Source: a virus
Virus record (IMG/VR): IMGVR_UViG_3300010885_043803
Span: 28,747 to 92,746 of that record
DNA: 64,000 nucleotides
Strand: one strand, 5' to 3'
Positions 8,734 through 57,810 of the stretch are shown here, in pieces. The position numbers were made by a program, and so were the translations under genes. The notes below the pieces were generated by a model. It was not told the origin of the DNA. It searched no databases and saw only the letters and a program-made list of their open reading frames with translations. Position 1 is the first letter of the stretch. The number at the start of each line of letters is the position of its first letter.

Positions 8734-9514
8734 GAAGGTAGACTTTCAGGCATTGTCAAACACACAGGCTCAACACATGTTACGCCGTGTTAGATCTTTG
8801 ATCAGTGAGCAGAGAAGTTCATCGGGCATTTACAAGAGCGAGAAAAATCCTGCTTACTTGAAATTAATGATGATGGAACAAGCTTTGGCCAGTCATATCA
8901 ATGAAGTTGGCACCACGCCAATGGCAATTGATGTCAACGATCCAAAGACCAAACAGATCATGCAAAAAGCCGGTAATGGTCAAACACTGAACCCTGAAGA
9001 ACAAAAAACCATGAACGCTATTGCTCTCATGAAAAAAGAGGGCAAGAAAGCAGGCATGAAGCGCATGGTCAAAGAAAGCGAAATTCAACAAGCTCAAGTT
9101 GTTCTAGCAAGCCAAGACATGCTGGATCGTATTCAGAAAATGACCGAAGATATCAGCGAAATGCAATTCAAAGATCTACCAGCATTGACTGACAGTATCA
9201 AGAATGACATGGGAACCGAACAAGCCACTGCATATCAAGCACAAGCCAGTGCCGCATTGAGCACATTACTAAGTGCATTGCAACAAGGCAAAACTCAACT
9301 AGAAGCGGCTCAGGGTGCTATTACTGGCACTGGTACTGACCTTGCAGTGCCAGGCGCTGATGATGACCTGGGTGCTGATCTAGACGCTGACGTAGATGCA
9401 GCCGCCTTGGCAGCACCAGACATGGGCGGAGATGAAGAAGATATATCAGTGGATGCTGATATTGACGCAGAAATTGAGCCAGCATCATCCCTGGGTAGAG
9501 AACGCAGAAAATGA
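8660..9514 (+). CDS. putative prohead core/scaffold-like acidic protein
   Basis: 284 residues, helical and rich in Met, Gln, Ala and Glu, ending in a long acidic Asp/Ala-rich stretch (for example DDDLGADLDADVDAAALAAP). A helical protein with an acidic, disordered C-terminal part is typical of phage scaffold or prohead core proteins, and the segment ASQDMLDRIQKMTEDISEMQ recalls proteins of marine T4-like phages. It overlaps both neighbours. The scaffold role is inferred. Confidence 0.45.
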   Translation: MKLNELSAVRKTETIARVFESYLGKKVDFQALSNTQAQHMLRRVRSLISEQRSSSGIYKSEKNPAYLKLMMMEQALASHINEVGTTPMAIDVNDPKTKQIMQKAGNGQTLNPEEQKTMNAIALMKKEGKKAGMKRMVKESEIQQAQVVLASQDMLDRIQKMTEDISEMQFKDLPALTDSIKNDMGTEQATAYQAQASAALSTLLSALQQGKTQLEAAQGAITGTGTDLAVPGADDDLGADLDADVDAAALAAPDMGGDEEDISVDADIDAEIEPASSLGRERRK

Positions 9515-9849
9515 GAATTGACGAAGTAGCTAGCCAGCCAGATACGGCCAGGCTGGCCGCTTTGGCAGAGTTCCTTCTAGGACGCAGTAATGATACAAAT
9601 GCGTCTAAAACAATTTCTACCGAAGCATTTATAAATTTAGCTGGCGACATGGGTATACCTTTGACTCATCAGCAATTGGTTAAATTTAGTCAAATGCCTC
9701 CACTGAATGGCATCATTGCCAATGTTGAACCAAATCAGATAACTTTCAAAGGTGCCGAGCCCGATGTTGACGATTCAGACATGAGCATCGACCAAGCTCG
9801 CGCCACTGTTGATAAAATGGCCAAAAGAGCCGCCAGCAAAGGAATATAA
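9511..9849 (+). CDS. hypothetical protein
   Basis: 112 residues, starting MRIDEVASQPDTARLAALAE. It is helical, with a short central beta part (IANVEPNQITFKG). The ATG overlaps the stop of the acidic scaffold-like gene (ATGA), so the pair is probably translationally coupled. No family is recognised. Confidence 0.6.
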   Translation: MRIDEVASQPDTARLAALAEFLLGRSNDTNASKTISTEAFINLAGDMGIPLTHQQLVKFSQMPPLNGIIANVEPNQITFKGAEPDVDDSDMSIDQARATVDKMAKRAASKGI

Positions 9850-26115: not shown

Positions 26116-26120
26116 ATTTA

Positions 26121-52866: not shown

Positions 52867-53108
52867 CACTATCTCAAAAAGACATTGATGAATTGTTGCA
52901 GTGGTCAGGTGCCGTGGCAATCATTGCCGGACACGTCCTCAATGCAGTGGGTCCCGAGGCATATCCTTGGAATATTGCAACCTTTGCTGTGGGCACCGTG
53001 ATGTTCTTGACATGGGCAATTAGAGTAAACAACAAACCACAGATGCTGGTCAATGTTGTGGCATTTGCTATCGGACTTGCGGGTTTGGTCAAGGCGTTTG
53101 TACAATGA
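52863..53108 (+). CDS. small membrane protein, 81 residues
   Basis: Three hydrophobic spans (SGAVAIIAGHVLNAVG, IATFAVGTVMFLTWAI, VVAFAIGLAGLVKAFV). Coupled to both neighbours. Resembles small phage YgaP-like or holin-like spans only in topology; function unknown. Confidence 0.65.
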   Translation: MTLSQKDIDELLQWSGAVAIIAGHVLNAVGPEAYPWNIATFAVGTVMFLTWAIRVNNKPQMLVNVVAFAIGLAGLVKAFVQ

Positions 53109-53452
53109 AGGTATTTTTAGAAACCACTGAGTGGGAAACAAGCACACCCAATCACGTTTACTTCATGGACGATGGTCGAAGCAAAATGTTTGCTTATGTA
53201 AAGTTTGGTCAAGGCAAGCCGTTTAAATTCAAAAACCCAATACGCATTGACACTAGAGGTCGTAAGTTTAAAGAAGTACCAAATACTTGGAACTTTTCTC
53301 TAAAGGAAGATGAACCCGAAGGTCGCGTATGGACAGTAAAAGGCAGCAAAGGTGATGAGTACACGGTATCAGAAATCAACGGTAACTATTCTTGTACCTG
53401 CTCGGGTTTCAAGTTTCGCGGTGACTGTAAACATGTAAAATCCGTGCAGTAA
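53105..53452 (+). CDS. SWIM zinc-finger protein
   Basis: 115 residues. SCTCSGFKFRGDCKHVKS is the SWIM motif (CxC then CxH) at the C-terminus; the rest is a beta-rich basic domain. SWIM fingers bind DNA or protein. Last gene of the early-type run before a terminator. Confidence 0.8.
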   Translation: MKVFLETTEWETSTPNHVYFMDDGRSKMFAYVKFGQGKPFKFKNPIRIDTRGRKFKEVPNTWNFSLKEDEPEGRVWTVKGSKGDEYTVSEINGNYSCTCSGFKFRGDCKHVKSVQ

Positions 53453-53466
53453 AATTTTAAACATAA

Positions 53467-53488
53467 AAATGCCCCTTTCGGGGCATTT
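53467..53488. terminator. bidirectional rho-independent terminator
   Basis: GCCCC and GGGGC, extended by A:T pairs, around TTTC (GAAA on the minus strand). Serves the SWIM gene and, with TTTTTAT, the convergent pqqA-like gene. Confidence 0.88.
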
Positions 53489-53491
53489 ATA

Positions 53492-53563
53492 TTATCGATT
53501 TGCGATATACATTGTGATTTCGAAACCGTAGCGCATTTCAGTTGCTTCTGGCTTTGTCCACAT
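53492..53563 (-). CDS. pqqA: PqqA-like precursor peptide, 23 residues
   Basis: Behind AAAGGAG with a 7-base spacing. The product begins MWTKP and contains GFEITMY, ending IANR. This is the PqqA pattern, including the Glu and Tyr (E15 and Y19, spacing ExxxY) that PqqE crosslinks to start PQQ synthesis. It has its own promoter and terminator. No PqqB-F set is visible here, but a radical SAM gene lies 0.8 kb away on the same strand. It could feed a host PQQ pathway, act as a decoy, or be substrate for a phage enzyme. Confidence 0.8.
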
Positions 53564-53607
53564 AGTAGTTCTCCTTTTAACAAATATACTGCATTAGTAT
53601 GTACCAC

Positions 53608-53613
53608 TATTAT
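53608..53613 (-). promoter_or_regulatory. -10-like TATAAT before the PqqA-like gene
   Basis: CAGTATAAT on the minus strand, about 45 bases before the ATG; the -35 is poor, so an activator may be needed. Confidence 0.45.
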
Positions 53614-53627
53614 ACTGGAGAAACTGC

Positions 53628-53762
53628 CTATTTCACATAGTGAATATCATTAATCTTATATCGTTTTTCTACGTATCTCTGTTCGGTAATACTGTTTAGC
53701 AGTAAGAATAACAGCACCAATAAACGGAAGCAATTTTCCTTTAAAAAGTTATGGTCTCGCAT
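53628..53762 (-). CDS. small membrane protein, 44 residues
   Basis: ATG at 53762, directly after a long hairpin. The product has a polar start, one strong span (FRLLVLLFLLLNSI) and a basic tail. The ribosome site is weak (ACAAAG). Upstream of the PqqA-like gene on the same strand. Moderate support from the hydrophobic pattern. Confidence 0.4.
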   Translation of the reverse strand: MRDHNFLKENCFRLLVLLFLLLNSITEQRYVEKRYKINDIHYVK

Positions 53763-53843: not shown

Positions 53844-54362
53844 TTAGCTATTCAATACCTTGGCAACACTATTCATAACGCTGGCAATACGACCAATGTC
53901 ACGAAGCTGTTCTACTGTATAGCCTTCCTTCTTGAGTGTTTCGTAATGTGCCTTAACACAGAAATGGCACTTGCCAACAATGCTTGCGGCCAAGCTATAG
54001 GCTTCAAATCGAGCTTTAGTTGTGCCGCCATGTGACGCAATAGCATTCATACGTAACTGAGCGGGTAGTCCTTTTAGAGCAGGGTCGTCTGCCATTTCAA
54101 CGTAAGGATACCATACGTTGTTTTGAGCCATGATGCTGGCGGCAGTAAGGGCGGCATCGGCTTCTTTGCGATCTGCAATCTGGCTATGGACCCATGTCCA
54201 AAGCTTGCTGTTGCCTGTGGCAAAAGCCGCCGCCAATGCCACAGCTTCGGCTTCATCCACAGGCAATGCACTGCGTTTGATCACAGCGTCAATATTGAGC
54301 TTGGTATCCTTTGCGTATTCGGGAATACTGGATTCTTTTAATGCGTCTACCCATTGGGTCAT
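53844..54362 (-). CDS. ahpD: AhpD-like alkylhydroperoxidase
   Basis: 172 residues. SIVGKCHFCVKAHYETLKKEG has the CxxC plus His of the AhpD/carboxymuconolactone-decarboxylase fold. AhpD reduces AhpC or peroxides directly. It is the last gene of the minus-strand unit after the radical SAM gene, which overlaps it by four bases, and ahpC is upstream. Bacterial in look, probably acquired from a host. Confidence 0.88.
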   Translation of the reverse strand: MTQWVDALKESSIPEYAKDTKLNIDAVIKRSALPVDEAEAVALAAAFATGNSKLWTWVHSQIADRKEADAALTAASIMAQNNVWYPYVEMADDPALKGLPAQLRMNAIASHGGTTKARFEAYSLAASIVGKCHFCVKAHYETLKKEGYTVEQLRDIGRIASVMNSVAKVLNS

Positions 54363-55792
54363 TTTGTTTCTCCTAAAATAATATTGTGTTTTGCAAATTC
54401 ATCCACCAGCCAGGGAAAAGTTTTTGGCCAGCTGGTTGATCTACGTCGATCTAACTCGTTAAGGTACAAATACAAGTTGAATATCTCCTTGACGTTTGGA
54501 TTACTGCTACAAGACTGTTTGGCAATGCCTTCAAGATACTGACGACTAGACAAGTCCTCGGGAGTTGATGTTGGCTTCAGTGCCAGGGCTTTTTCAAAAT
54601 CTTCTTTGAATATAGCACCAAACATATCAATTGACTGATTGTTTCTTCCTTGCACAGAATTTTGATAGTGATGAACTCTACGAGTTTTATTCCAGTGATT
54701 TATTTTATCTATCAATGTTGGCAAAGTTTTTATGGTAAGCGGTGTTACTGTGGAACCAATGATCAAATTGATCCAGTGCTGTGATAACAAATATTCAAAA
54801 TTTCTTTCCCATACTGTTAGGTTCAAGGGAAAGCGAACATACTCTTGCTCGGGACCCCAACAATCCAAACTGGCAGTTACTTCAAATTCTCTGAGATGGT
54901 TGGTGTCGATTAGTTTCTTCACACGTTCGACTATCTTCACAAGATGTGGTAATCGTGTGTTTAAATTTGTGAATATTTGCAATTTGAGTTCTGGTGCGGG
55001 GTGCTGTTCAAATAAATCCAAGCACTGTTCAAACTCGTCTTGGTATAACGGCTCACCACCCAGCACGTTAAACACTGTTAGATTATGTACATTTTTTTTC
55101 AGCCACTCAAACAACTTGTTTTTATTGTCTTTGAGGTCTGGGCTCTTCTTAAAGCTCGGCGATAAGAAACTGGTTTCAAGACTTTCATGTACATACAAAC
55201 CGTGTTTTTTGTTTTCGGCGTCCCACAGGCTTGAATACAATGGACCACAATACATGCATTTTAAGTTGCAGGTATTGTCAAAATAAACTTCAAGTATCCT
55301 TGGAGTTACATGCACAGCATGCAGATCAATATCCAGCTCAGGTGGTGCATGCATTCCGGGGAAGTCTAAGTTGGTGATTCGATCACTGGCACCGCCAACA
55401 GCTTCAATGTCACGACAGTATTCACATCCGCCGCCAGGCCACTTCCCTTCAAGCATTTTTGTTCTTGCTTGCATTTTTTCTGGGGTGTTGTGAAAATCAA
55501 ATGTGTCGGGATCAAACTTGCTGCCAAATGTTCTATGGCAACTTGAAGTCATGCCAGTGGTTAAAAACAAAGTGCTCCAGTTCCATTTTAGTTGACACGC
55601 TGTAGCAGTTTTAATCGGAAAAATTTTATGTGATAGTTTGGATGACTTTTTAAACAAGCCCGGGACATAACCAAACCGAGTCTTGCACTCTTGTTGAATA
55701 AGTTCGGGTAAAAATCTAAACTGCTCCTCGGACTCACAGTCGGGCCAGGACTGATCTCGAATCTCTTGATAAAACTCTTTCCAAGAAGACAT
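54359..55792 (-). CDS. radical SAM protein, twitch type
   Basis: 477 residues. CNLKCMYC (C175, C179, C182) follows ILEVYFDNT; N-terminal cysteines (SSCHRT, GGCEYC) and the end LNELDRRRSTSW mark it as a paralogue of the protein at 438-1538. VLGGEPL fits the GGE motif. It lies between ahpC and ahpD and is the radical SAM gene nearest to the PqqA-like gene. Substrate unknown. Confidence 0.88.
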   Translation of the reverse strand: MSSWKEFYQEIRDQSWPDCESEEQFRFLPELIQQECKTRFGYVPGLFKKSSKLSHKIFPIKTATACQLKWNWSTLFLTTGMTSSCHRTFGSKFDPDTFDFHNTPEKMQARTKMLEGKWPGGGCEYCRDIEAVGGASDRITNLDFPGMHAPPELDIDLHAVHVTPRILEVYFDNTCNLKCMYCGPLYSSLWDAENKKHGLYVHESLETSFLSPSFKKSPDLKDNKNKLFEWLKKNVHNLTVFNVLGGEPLYQDEFEQCLDLFEQHPAPELKLQIFTNLNTRLPHLVKIVERVKKLIDTNHLREFEVTASLDCWGPEQEYVRFPLNLTVWERNFEYLLSQHWINLIIGSTVTPLTIKTLPTLIDKINHWNKTRRVHHYQNSVQGRNNQSIDMFGAIFKEDFEKALALKPTSTPEDLSSRQYLEGIAKQSCSSNPNVKEIFNLYLYLNELDRRRSTSWPKTFPWLVDEFAKHNIILGETK

Positions 55793-55815: not shown

Positions 55816-56355
55816 TTAAAGTGTTTCGCCGCCAACTGTACGATTGCAAGCACACAGTTCACCTGTTTGCAGTGCATCCAATACACGCAGAGTTTCTTCT
55901 GGGCTACGACCAACGTTGAGGTTGTTAACAGTAACGTGCTGAATTTCGTTGTTAGGATCAACAATGAATGTTGCACGAAGTGCGGCACCTGCAGGAGCAT
56001 AGAGCACACCTAGTTGTTCAATCAAGCTGAGTTCACCGCGCTGTGTATCAGCAAACTGGTGATGTGTGATCTTTTGTAGATCGGGGTGTGCTTTTTGCCA
56101 TGCTACCTTGCAGAACTCGTTGTCTGTGCTACCCGTTAGCAATACTGCATCACGGTCGGCAAAATCTTGTGCCAACTTGTCATACGCCACAATTTCAGTG
56201 GGGCAAACAAATGTAAAATCTTTTGGATAGTAAACAATTACTTTCCACTTGCCTTCAAACGAGCGTTCAGTAATGGTGTAAAAAGCATCTTCTGGTTGCC
56301 CAGGACGCACGCCAGTGATGGCAAAAGTGGTGAGTTGGTCGCCTACAGTTTTCAT
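55816..56355 (-). CDS. ahpC: 2-Cys peroxiredoxin AhpC
   Basis: 179 residues. FVCPTE holds the peroxidatic Cys and ELCACN the resolving Cys; GVRPGQPEDAF and DFTFVCPTEI are typical. It reduces peroxides, with AhpD or AhpF as electron donor; AhpD is two genes downstream, AhpF is absent. Promoter with a 5' hairpin upstream. Would protect the infected cell from oxidative stress. Confidence 0.95.
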   Translation of the reverse strand: MKTVGDQLTTFAITGVRPGQPEDAFYTITERSFEGKWKVIVYYPKDFTFVCPTEIVAYDKLAQDFADRDAVLLTGSTDNEFCKVAWQKAHPDLQKITHHQFADTQRGELSLIEQLGVLYAPAGAALRATFIVDPNNEIQHVTVNNLNVGRSPEETLRVLDALQTGELCACNRTVGGETL

Positions 56356-56532: not shown

Positions 56533-57810
56533 TTAGAATGCTTTGCGCATGCCAATTGCAAATGCGTCAATGGCTTGTCCCTTGGCAGGAGCACCTGCTG
56601 TCATACCAAAGATTGGGCCCATATTGGCGTTACCTTGGTTGTCAGCACGACTATACAATGCAAACACTGCAAACGTTTTAGAAAAATTGTATTGACCATA
56701 CACAGAAGTCAAGTTAACTTTGTTTGCGTCAACTGTTTTGTCCACAACTGCTGTGTACTGTGCGGCAACACGAGTTCGATCATTGACTTTATAACTGACA
56801 CCAAGAGCATTGGCATCAAAATCATTGCCATACGCAGTACCAACTGGAGCATTGCGTGCGGCAGTGATAATACCGCTAGCAGAAATGCTCATTGGAGTCG
56901 TCATGCAGTTACCACCAGATTTGGTTTCACTGCACTGGCCCCATCGAGCACCAAAGTAACCATACTTGAATGTAAGGTCTTTATATGTGTATGCGGCACC
57001 GGCCATTTGGGTTTTTAGCTGGGTAGCACCGGTGTTGTCGTTAACATCTTGTACGCCAACTAGTGCTGAGAATGGACCTTTTTCATATTCGACCACAACG
57101 TTGCGTTGACCTTGTTGTTCGAATTCGTTGCTGGCAGTTGGACCATTCTGGTTCATTCCCCACATGGCATGAACAGTGACACCGTTGTAAGTTGGTGACT
57201 TCCAGCCAATACCGTTGCTGTAGTTGTTGGGACCACCGTTGATACCGGACACATTCAAGTCTGGATTAAGTGGAGCAACTACACCACTCAACATACGATT
57301 ACCGGATGAACCGTGTCCGGTCAATGTACCGTTGACTGCACCAATACCACCAGAGGCAATACCAAGCGCATCCAAACGTGTGGACATGTAAAATTGTGGA
57401 GTCAATTGACGTCCAAGTGTAAAGTTACCAACTGTTGGTGTGATTATTTCCAAGTTGGCTTTGCGATAAAACAACGAGGTAGAACCACCCGAAATAGCAT
57501 AACCATTACCAGGGTTGGTACCACCAACACCGCTTAACGACGAGCTAACATTACCACTGTTGGTATTAACTGCGGTTTCCAAGTTAACTGATGCTTTGTA
57601 CCCACCAGCAATGTCGTGTGTTCCACGGAAGCCCAATGAGCTGTTGCCTAAAACAGAACTGGACATATTAAATGCGTTGAGTCCCGGGGCATTGTGTGCA
57701 ACACCGGCAATATTCAAATTGCCATAAATTTGAAGTGGTGCTTCTTGCGACTGCGCCTGCGCAGTAGAGAACCCCGCGGCAATAAGCAGAGGTAGAAGTA
57801 GTTTTTTCAT
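56533..57810 (-). CDS. outer-membrane porin, Burkholderiales type
   Basis: 425 residues. Signal peptide MKKLLLPLLIAAGFSTAQA, then LQIYGNLNIAGVAHN and a beta-barrel rich in Gly, Asn, Thr with NLETAVNTNSGN, and a final ...MRKAF with C-terminal Phe, as BamA substrates need. A 16-strand general porin like those of betaproteobacteria. Phage porins can replace a receptor or shift permeability. Has its own promoter and terminator, as a cargo gene. Confidence 0.9.
   Translation of the reverse strand: MKKLLLPLLIAAGFSTAQAQSQEAPLQIYGNLNIAGVAHNAPGLNAFNMSSSVLGNSSLGFRGTHDIAGGYKASVNLETAVNTNSGNVSSSLSGVGGTNPGNGYAISGGSTSLFYRKANLEIITPTVGNFTLGRQLTPQFYMSTRLDALGIASGGIGAVNGTLTGHGSSGNRMLSGVVAPLNPDLNVSGINGGPNNYSNGIGWKSPTYNGVTVHAMWGMNQNGPTASNEFEQQGQRNVVVEYEKGPFSALVGVQDVNDNTGATQLKTQMAGAAYTYKDLTFKYGYFGARWGQCSETKSGGNCMTTPMSISASGIITAARNAPVGTAYGNDFDANALGVSYKVNDRTRVAAQYTAVVDKTVDANKVNLTSVYGQYNFSKTFAVFALYSRADNQGNANMGPIFGMTAGAPAKGQAIDAFAIGMRKAF

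Follow-up and report, generated by a model that had tools for sequence, protein, structure and literature searches.

A pqqA gene for the PQQ precursor peptide, with a candidate host-like control site, recurs unannotated in phages

A 23-codon open reading frame in a phage contig that looks like pqqA, the gene for the precursor peptide of the cofactor PQQ, raises the question of whether it is a genuine gene and, if so, what a virus would gain from the precursor of a pathway run by its host. The window analysed here is a stretch of 64,000 nucleotides, positions 28747-92746 of a 92,746-base IMG/VR record, and the whole record holds one PqqA only. The 23-residue peptide scored 35 bits against the Pfam profile PF08042 (cut-off 21.1, E 1.3e-8), the search that the first-pass annotation had proposed, and 38.2 bits against the NCBI PqqA equivalog TIGR02107 (cut-off 20, E 8.8e-10). 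Its suggestion of a PqqA-like peptide gene in a phage is thus borne out by both curated profiles, by the viral contig and by the flanking phage genes. That annotation gave no strand; we set it here as minus, the plus strand of the same interval having yielded no match when read as the coding strand.

Table 1 Features of the pqqA locus and its upstream neighbours, in window coordinates
Feature	Coordinates	Strand	Remarks
Intrinsic terminator AAATGCCCCgaaaGGGGCATTT	53467..53488	-	9-bp stem, palindromic
pqqA	53492..53563	-	23-codon ORF, PQQ precursor peptide; PF08042 and TIGR02107 over cut-off; identical peptide elsewhere
Shine-Dalgarno AAAGGAG	53571..53577	-	7 nt before ATG
5' leader hairpin (ATACT aatgc AGTAT)	53584..53602	-	7 bp in related phages, ACATACT/AGTATGT
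-10 hexamer TATAAT, putative pqqA promoter	53609..53614	-	best promoter-like site of the region
Operator-like dyad TTAATGATATTCACTAT	53637..53653	-	resembles host pqqA box CTMATGAWWWTCATKAG; host-derived matrix 10.9
AhpD-like gene (carboxymuconolactone decarboxylase family)	53844..54362	-	PF02627, 50 bits; usual peroxiredoxin partner
Twitch-type radical SAM protein	54359..55792	-	477 aa; NF033640, 216.6 bits (cut-off 170); not PqqE
AhpC/TSA-type peroxiredoxin	55816..56355	-	179 aa; PF00578, 76 bits

The window peptide carries the cross-link pair, E15 and Y19, four residues apart within GFEITMY. This ExxxY pair is also kept in related phages, as the first-pass annotation had required, though its invariance in the pattern-scan sets arises by construction (the patterns demand the ExxxY codons) and proves nothing there. 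Pattern-free support comes from a profile search of peroxiredoxin-bearing records, in 4 of 4 matches over the cut-off, and from tblastn matches in isolates. The peptide recurs letter for letter in 8 other viral contigs, in 6 of them by way of 9-11 silent differences, and a Shine-Dalgarno-like motif lies upstream of 201 of the 202 viral pqqA ORFs collected. Identity maintained through silent differences, together with this motif, places the ORF beyond chance, and by sequence criteria it is confirmed as a genuine PqqA homologue in a phage.

The signals around the gene point the same way. The ribosome site noted earlier is present at its expected place (Table 1). Of the "own terminator" claimed for the gene, the terminator itself stands but the exclusive ownership does not: it is palindromic and also positioned for the convergent gene 53105-53452, and is therefore common to both. 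Taken with the elements upstream, pqqA is a predicted self-contained unit of operator-like dyad, TATAAT at fixed spacing, leader hairpin, Shine-Dalgarno sequence and terminator. Stems of at least 6 bp occurred in 34 of 53 and 56 of 112 phage upstream regions, against 9.6 and 20 in mononucleotide shuffles; since host upstream regions are enriched as well (32 of 113 against 14.8), we regard the leader hairpin as a minor point.

We then asked how widely the gene occurs. A degenerate-pattern search recovered at least 120 viral contigs with pqqA and a narrower pattern for the window's sub-type recovered 81; about 200 viral contigs carrying the gene were examined. Among 50,697 phage records, it was found in nine isolated Methylophilales phages (MEP301, MEP401, MEP402, Venkman, P19250A and four Melnitz phages) and in one environmental podovirus. 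The warning that such a gene is easily missed proved apt, as pqqA is without annotation in all nine cultured phages and in the phage regions examined, where the "hypothetical protein" labels belong to opposite-strand ORFs. The peptide encoded by P19250A matches, residue for residue, the PqqA form most often found in Methylophilaceae. A phage PqqA has been reported once before, in virus VP_266 from Lake Baikal (Coutinho et al. 2020, PMC7678222), in a paper according to which P19250A has none of the reported genes; P19250A encodes pqqA, and the statement needs correcting for this gene.

Several individual records deserve mention. One pqqA copy lies on a 356-kb viral contig, so that very large phages may carry the gene too. 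Two contigs that are 98.6% alike have different pqqA deletions (L158, 3113-3270; L159, 3169-3380): one retains promoter and terminator with the gene gone, the other the gene's first half with the terminator gone, so either the losses are recent or the contigs were misassembled at the hairpin. Two matches to "Acinetobacter phage MD-2021a" were set aside as probably bacterial DNA labelled as phage: the full pqqABCDE operon is present, with ppk and fur as neighbours; record CAKLQF020000010 is one such record holding the complete operon.

The window peptide belongs to a distinct sub-type. Host peptides of the same type read EMRFGFEVTMY, whereas the phage sub-type reads RYGFEIT, with two near-fixed changes, F12Y and V16I. 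Neither 187 Methylophilaceae genomes nor 399 genomes sampled at order level contained RYGFEIT, which is thus either phage-enriched or derived from an unsampled host. In view of this absence, the peptide may have a changed function. The IANR ending of the window peptide resembles pqqA of three stretches from the wider order-level sample (L440-L442). On codons free of the search-pattern constraint, dN/dS was ~0.33. We infer that the host of the window phage is a methylotrophic betaproteobacterium. Methylophilaceae genomes hold 1-12 pqqA copies, several of them unlinked to pqqBCDE; the family has been described as having 3-12 pqqA genes and typically single copies of the remaining pqq genes (PMC4109929).

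The upstream region offered a further link to hosts. A recurrent block, TTAATGATTTTCACTATG, lies upstream of phage pqqA, and a related 17-bp dyad, CTMATGAWWWTCATKAG, is found in host pqqA upstream regions. Within 14 Methylophilaceae genomes there were 19 exact CTMATGAWWWTCATKAG sites, of which 15 lie shortly before pqqA, two ~185 bp before pqqB and two elsewhere; a reversed control pattern gave zero sites in the same genomes. Box sites occurred in 23 of the 120 genomes of a wider sample; all nine sites inspected in six stretches (L440-L445) lie just before pqqA, and at one further site (L446) pqqA was not found. Given these sites in the wider sample, the box is by this evidence not tied to Methylophilaceae and does not alone name the host.

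In the window, the dyad is centred 82 nt before the ATG and 31 nt before the -10 hexamer. It is a degenerate match, whose score on a matrix built partly from hand-picked host sites is equalled by 1% of random viral 160-mers, and it sits at the phage-typical spacing of 31 bp. Host boxes (25 cases) are centred 53 bp from the -10; in phages the distance is 30-31 bp, seen in 16 cases under the strict score and in 40, drawn from 6 of 15 contig clusters, once half-sites are included, the phage counts being inflated by shared descent among related phages. The phage spacing is hence ~22 bp shorter, or about two helical turns. In hosts a further half-site lies downstream of the box, and phages may keep only the nearer half-site position. 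A half-site was present in 99 of 167 distinct phage upstream regions, where shuffles gave 3 on average. This count was made in the same sequences that yielded the motif, and the scan of whole host genomes offers a more independent test. Among the isolates, box scores were good for Melnitz, Venkman and Manatee Spring virus, weak for P19250A and MEP301, and nil for MEP402. Two other identities for the upstream element were considered and rejected: a T4 late promoter, TATAAATA, was seen in only 4 of 165 phage pqqA upstream regions, and a general phage promoter would not be confined as the block is, which at up to 4 mismatches occurs in the window only before pqqA, except at 26118 (3 mismatches). 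A search of literature lying mostly outside subscription journals returned no described pqqA operator.

Apparently, then, the phage has acquired the substrate that the pathway consumes and, along with it, the host's control site. We put at about an even chance the idea that pqqA was captured time and again by phages of methylotrophic betaproteobacteria together with this site, its helical phase kept but its position some two turns closer to the -10, and that infected cells make the precursor from phage DNA under host regulation; were it so, regulatory hijacking of a cofactor pathway would be widespread in phages and yet unannotated.

What, then, might the gene do? We consider it probable that phage pqqA is functional and that extra PQQ precursor is made during infection, processed by the host and placed under host-like control. 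In the known pathway, PqqE links Glu to Tyr in PqqD-bound PqqA, and PqqF/G, PqqB and PqqC then complete PQQ (PMC10906245). We infer the following scheme, in which the gene is expressed and answers to a host regulator, its product is handled by host enzymes, and the phage benefits. Phage pqqA, expressed during infection, would supply extra precursor peptide; host PqqD/PqqE would cross-link Glu15 to Tyr19, and host PqqF/G, PqqB and PqqC would convert the product to PQQ. Newly made methanol dehydrogenase, or another PQQ-dependent dehydrogenase, would then stay loaded, and host energy and reductant would continue to flow for the phage. As the dyad resembles the host pqqA control site, the gene is probably driven by the host regulator of PQQ synthesis. 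PqqA is the sole pathway component that is consumed stoichiometrically, one peptide per PQQ, and this would account both for phages with pqqA alone and for the several pqqA copies in the presumed hosts; phages that add pqqA alone match a pathway in which the consumable component is limiting. The first-pass annotation had offered boosting or diverting host PQQ; boosting is the best-supported function, with precursor supply favoured, and nothing points to diversion.

This reading has to be weighed against the possibility that pqqA is a passenger, a captured host gene of no benefit that hitch-hikes beside a peroxiredoxin-AhpD cassette. The contig has genes for ribonucleotide reductase, DNA ligase, an endolysin and a DnaB-like helicase, and one that resembles a UV endonuclease; pqqA is accordingly a host-type metabolic gene amid phage genes in a virus record, as expected of an auxiliary metabolic gene, and it occurs in isolated phages too. 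Upstream on the same strand lie genes for AhpD, the twitch radical SAM protein, the peroxiredoxin and a porin. Viral relatives of the peroxiredoxin number at least 599, and in the best 80 peroxiredoxin-bearing viral loci it is accompanied by AhpD in 77 and by pqqA in 4. The nearest relative of the window in its flanks (L138) keeps the peroxiredoxin, AhpD and the convergent gene, with another small ORF in place of the absent pqqA. Together with the presence of pqqA in just 4 of 50 whole peroxiredoxin-bearing viral records, this makes pqqA an optional insert next to a widespread phage cassette. Such rarity, and the different deletions in the near-identical L158 and L159, are what a passenger would show. 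Against it speak the purifying selection, the retained Shine-Dalgarno sequence and promoter, and the presence of pqqA in unrelated phage lineages that have no peroxiredoxin-AhpD cassette, and we consider it improbable.

Two features of these flanks are recorded in passing. The peroxiredoxin-AhpD pair abounds in viral contigs, yet the GenBank phage relatives found were all below 60% identity. The porin gene (56533-57810; PF13609, 101 bits) is replaced at the same place in L138 by a different, shorter outer-membrane-protein-like ORF (9276-9821); searching 369 genomes with the window porin as a host marker gave nothing at E<=1e-10.

Alternatively, the peptide might act as a decoy or brake, competing for host PqqD/PqqE, or the box might titrate the host regulator, either of which would lower PQQ synthesis. 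The near-fixed F12Y and V16I changes and a box copied without pqqBCDE could be taken in this sense, but both substitutions are conservative, and the P19250A peptide, being identical to host PqqA, should be a normal substrate. Lowered synthesis is also at odds with the co-occurrence of pqqA and methanol dehydrogenase in two viruses, one of our pqqA-bearing records (G010) and VP_266 (PMC7678222). We therefore regard a decoy or brake as very unlikely.

No pqqB, C, D or E adjoined any of ~200 viral pqqA copies, a test that was positive in 32 host loci; linkage to pqqBCDE is usual for pqqA, not required, and the window's contig carries no PqqE. As family matches, the five radical SAM enzymes reported earlier are upheld (the ORFs starting at 438, 3691, 24964, 54359 and 58359), and the best score of the phage radical SAM proteins against PqqE (TIGR02109) was 24.4 bits, where the cut-off is 381. 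Among 50 further viral records with pqqA, not one had a PqqE match at E<=1e-20. A PQQ alcohol dehydrogenase is lacking from the window's record, and of 50 pqqA-bearing viral records one (G010) encodes such an enzyme scoring over cut-off. Viral record IMGVR_UViG_3300025120_009955 encodes a 624-residue PQQ-dependent alcohol, probably methanol, dehydrogenase (L447, 3990-5861) and carries pqqA (L051) too.

The earlier proposal that the peptide is a substrate of the 54359 protein fares poorly on these data: that protein belongs to a general twitch radical SAM subfamily without association with pqqA in other phages, it falls far below the PqqE cut-off, and no homologue covering more than 9% of it was present in ~200 pqqA-bearing viral loci. 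A phage RiPP, in which one of the phage's own radical SAM proteins would turn the peptide into a new product, could draw on the five radical SAM-like ORFs, on the position of the 54359 gene two genes upstream on the same strand and on a sub-type seen in phages only, but it is the least likely reading, as the 54359 gene does not travel with pqqA, no PqqE equivalog is present, no PqqD-like gene was found near viral pqqA, cultured phages of 35-44 kb have pqqA with no radical SAM gene annotated close by, and the residues that PqqE needs are retained. A phage RiPP is thus disfavoured, and precursor supply to the host PQQ pathway is favoured.

Three observations appear to be new: the recurrence of pqqA, unannotated and without pqqBCDE, in ~200 viral contigs and nine cultured Methylophilales phages; the RYGFEIT sub-type, found in phages only; and a putative phage promoter dyad that resembles the host 17-bp box and lies closer to the -10. 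If precursor supply holds, a peptide too short for gene callers would be a common auxiliary gene of methylotroph phages and would link viral infection to aquatic methanol oxidation. With a compact, putative host operator now named, its regulator can be sought, and several pqqA phages in culture with their hosts make a laboratory test ready to hand.

These findings can be set beside three known systems. Methylophilaceae PqqA shares with the phage peptide its length, the MWTKP start, the EMRxGFExTMY core and the Glu/Tyr pair, as well as stand-alone copies outside pqqBCDE and a putative upstream box; the phage sub-type differs in Tyr12 and Ile16, in its phage flanks, and in a degenerate box that lies ~22 bp nearer the -10. 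VP_266, a T4-like virus with a predicted Methylophilaceae host, likewise has a viral pqqA with the same proposed role; it carries a methanol dehydrogenase and has 35% GC, whereas the window phage has no dehydrogenase on its record and ~42% GC, and no pqqA operator is described in the available sections of the report (PMC7678222). In cyanophages, pathway and regulator are different, and the PhoB system is backed by gel-shift binding where ours is read from sequence; there, too, phage genes such as pstS lie behind a host regulator's binding site, and some of the genes under host PhoB control are host-derived metabolic genes (PMC10976474 and work cited there).
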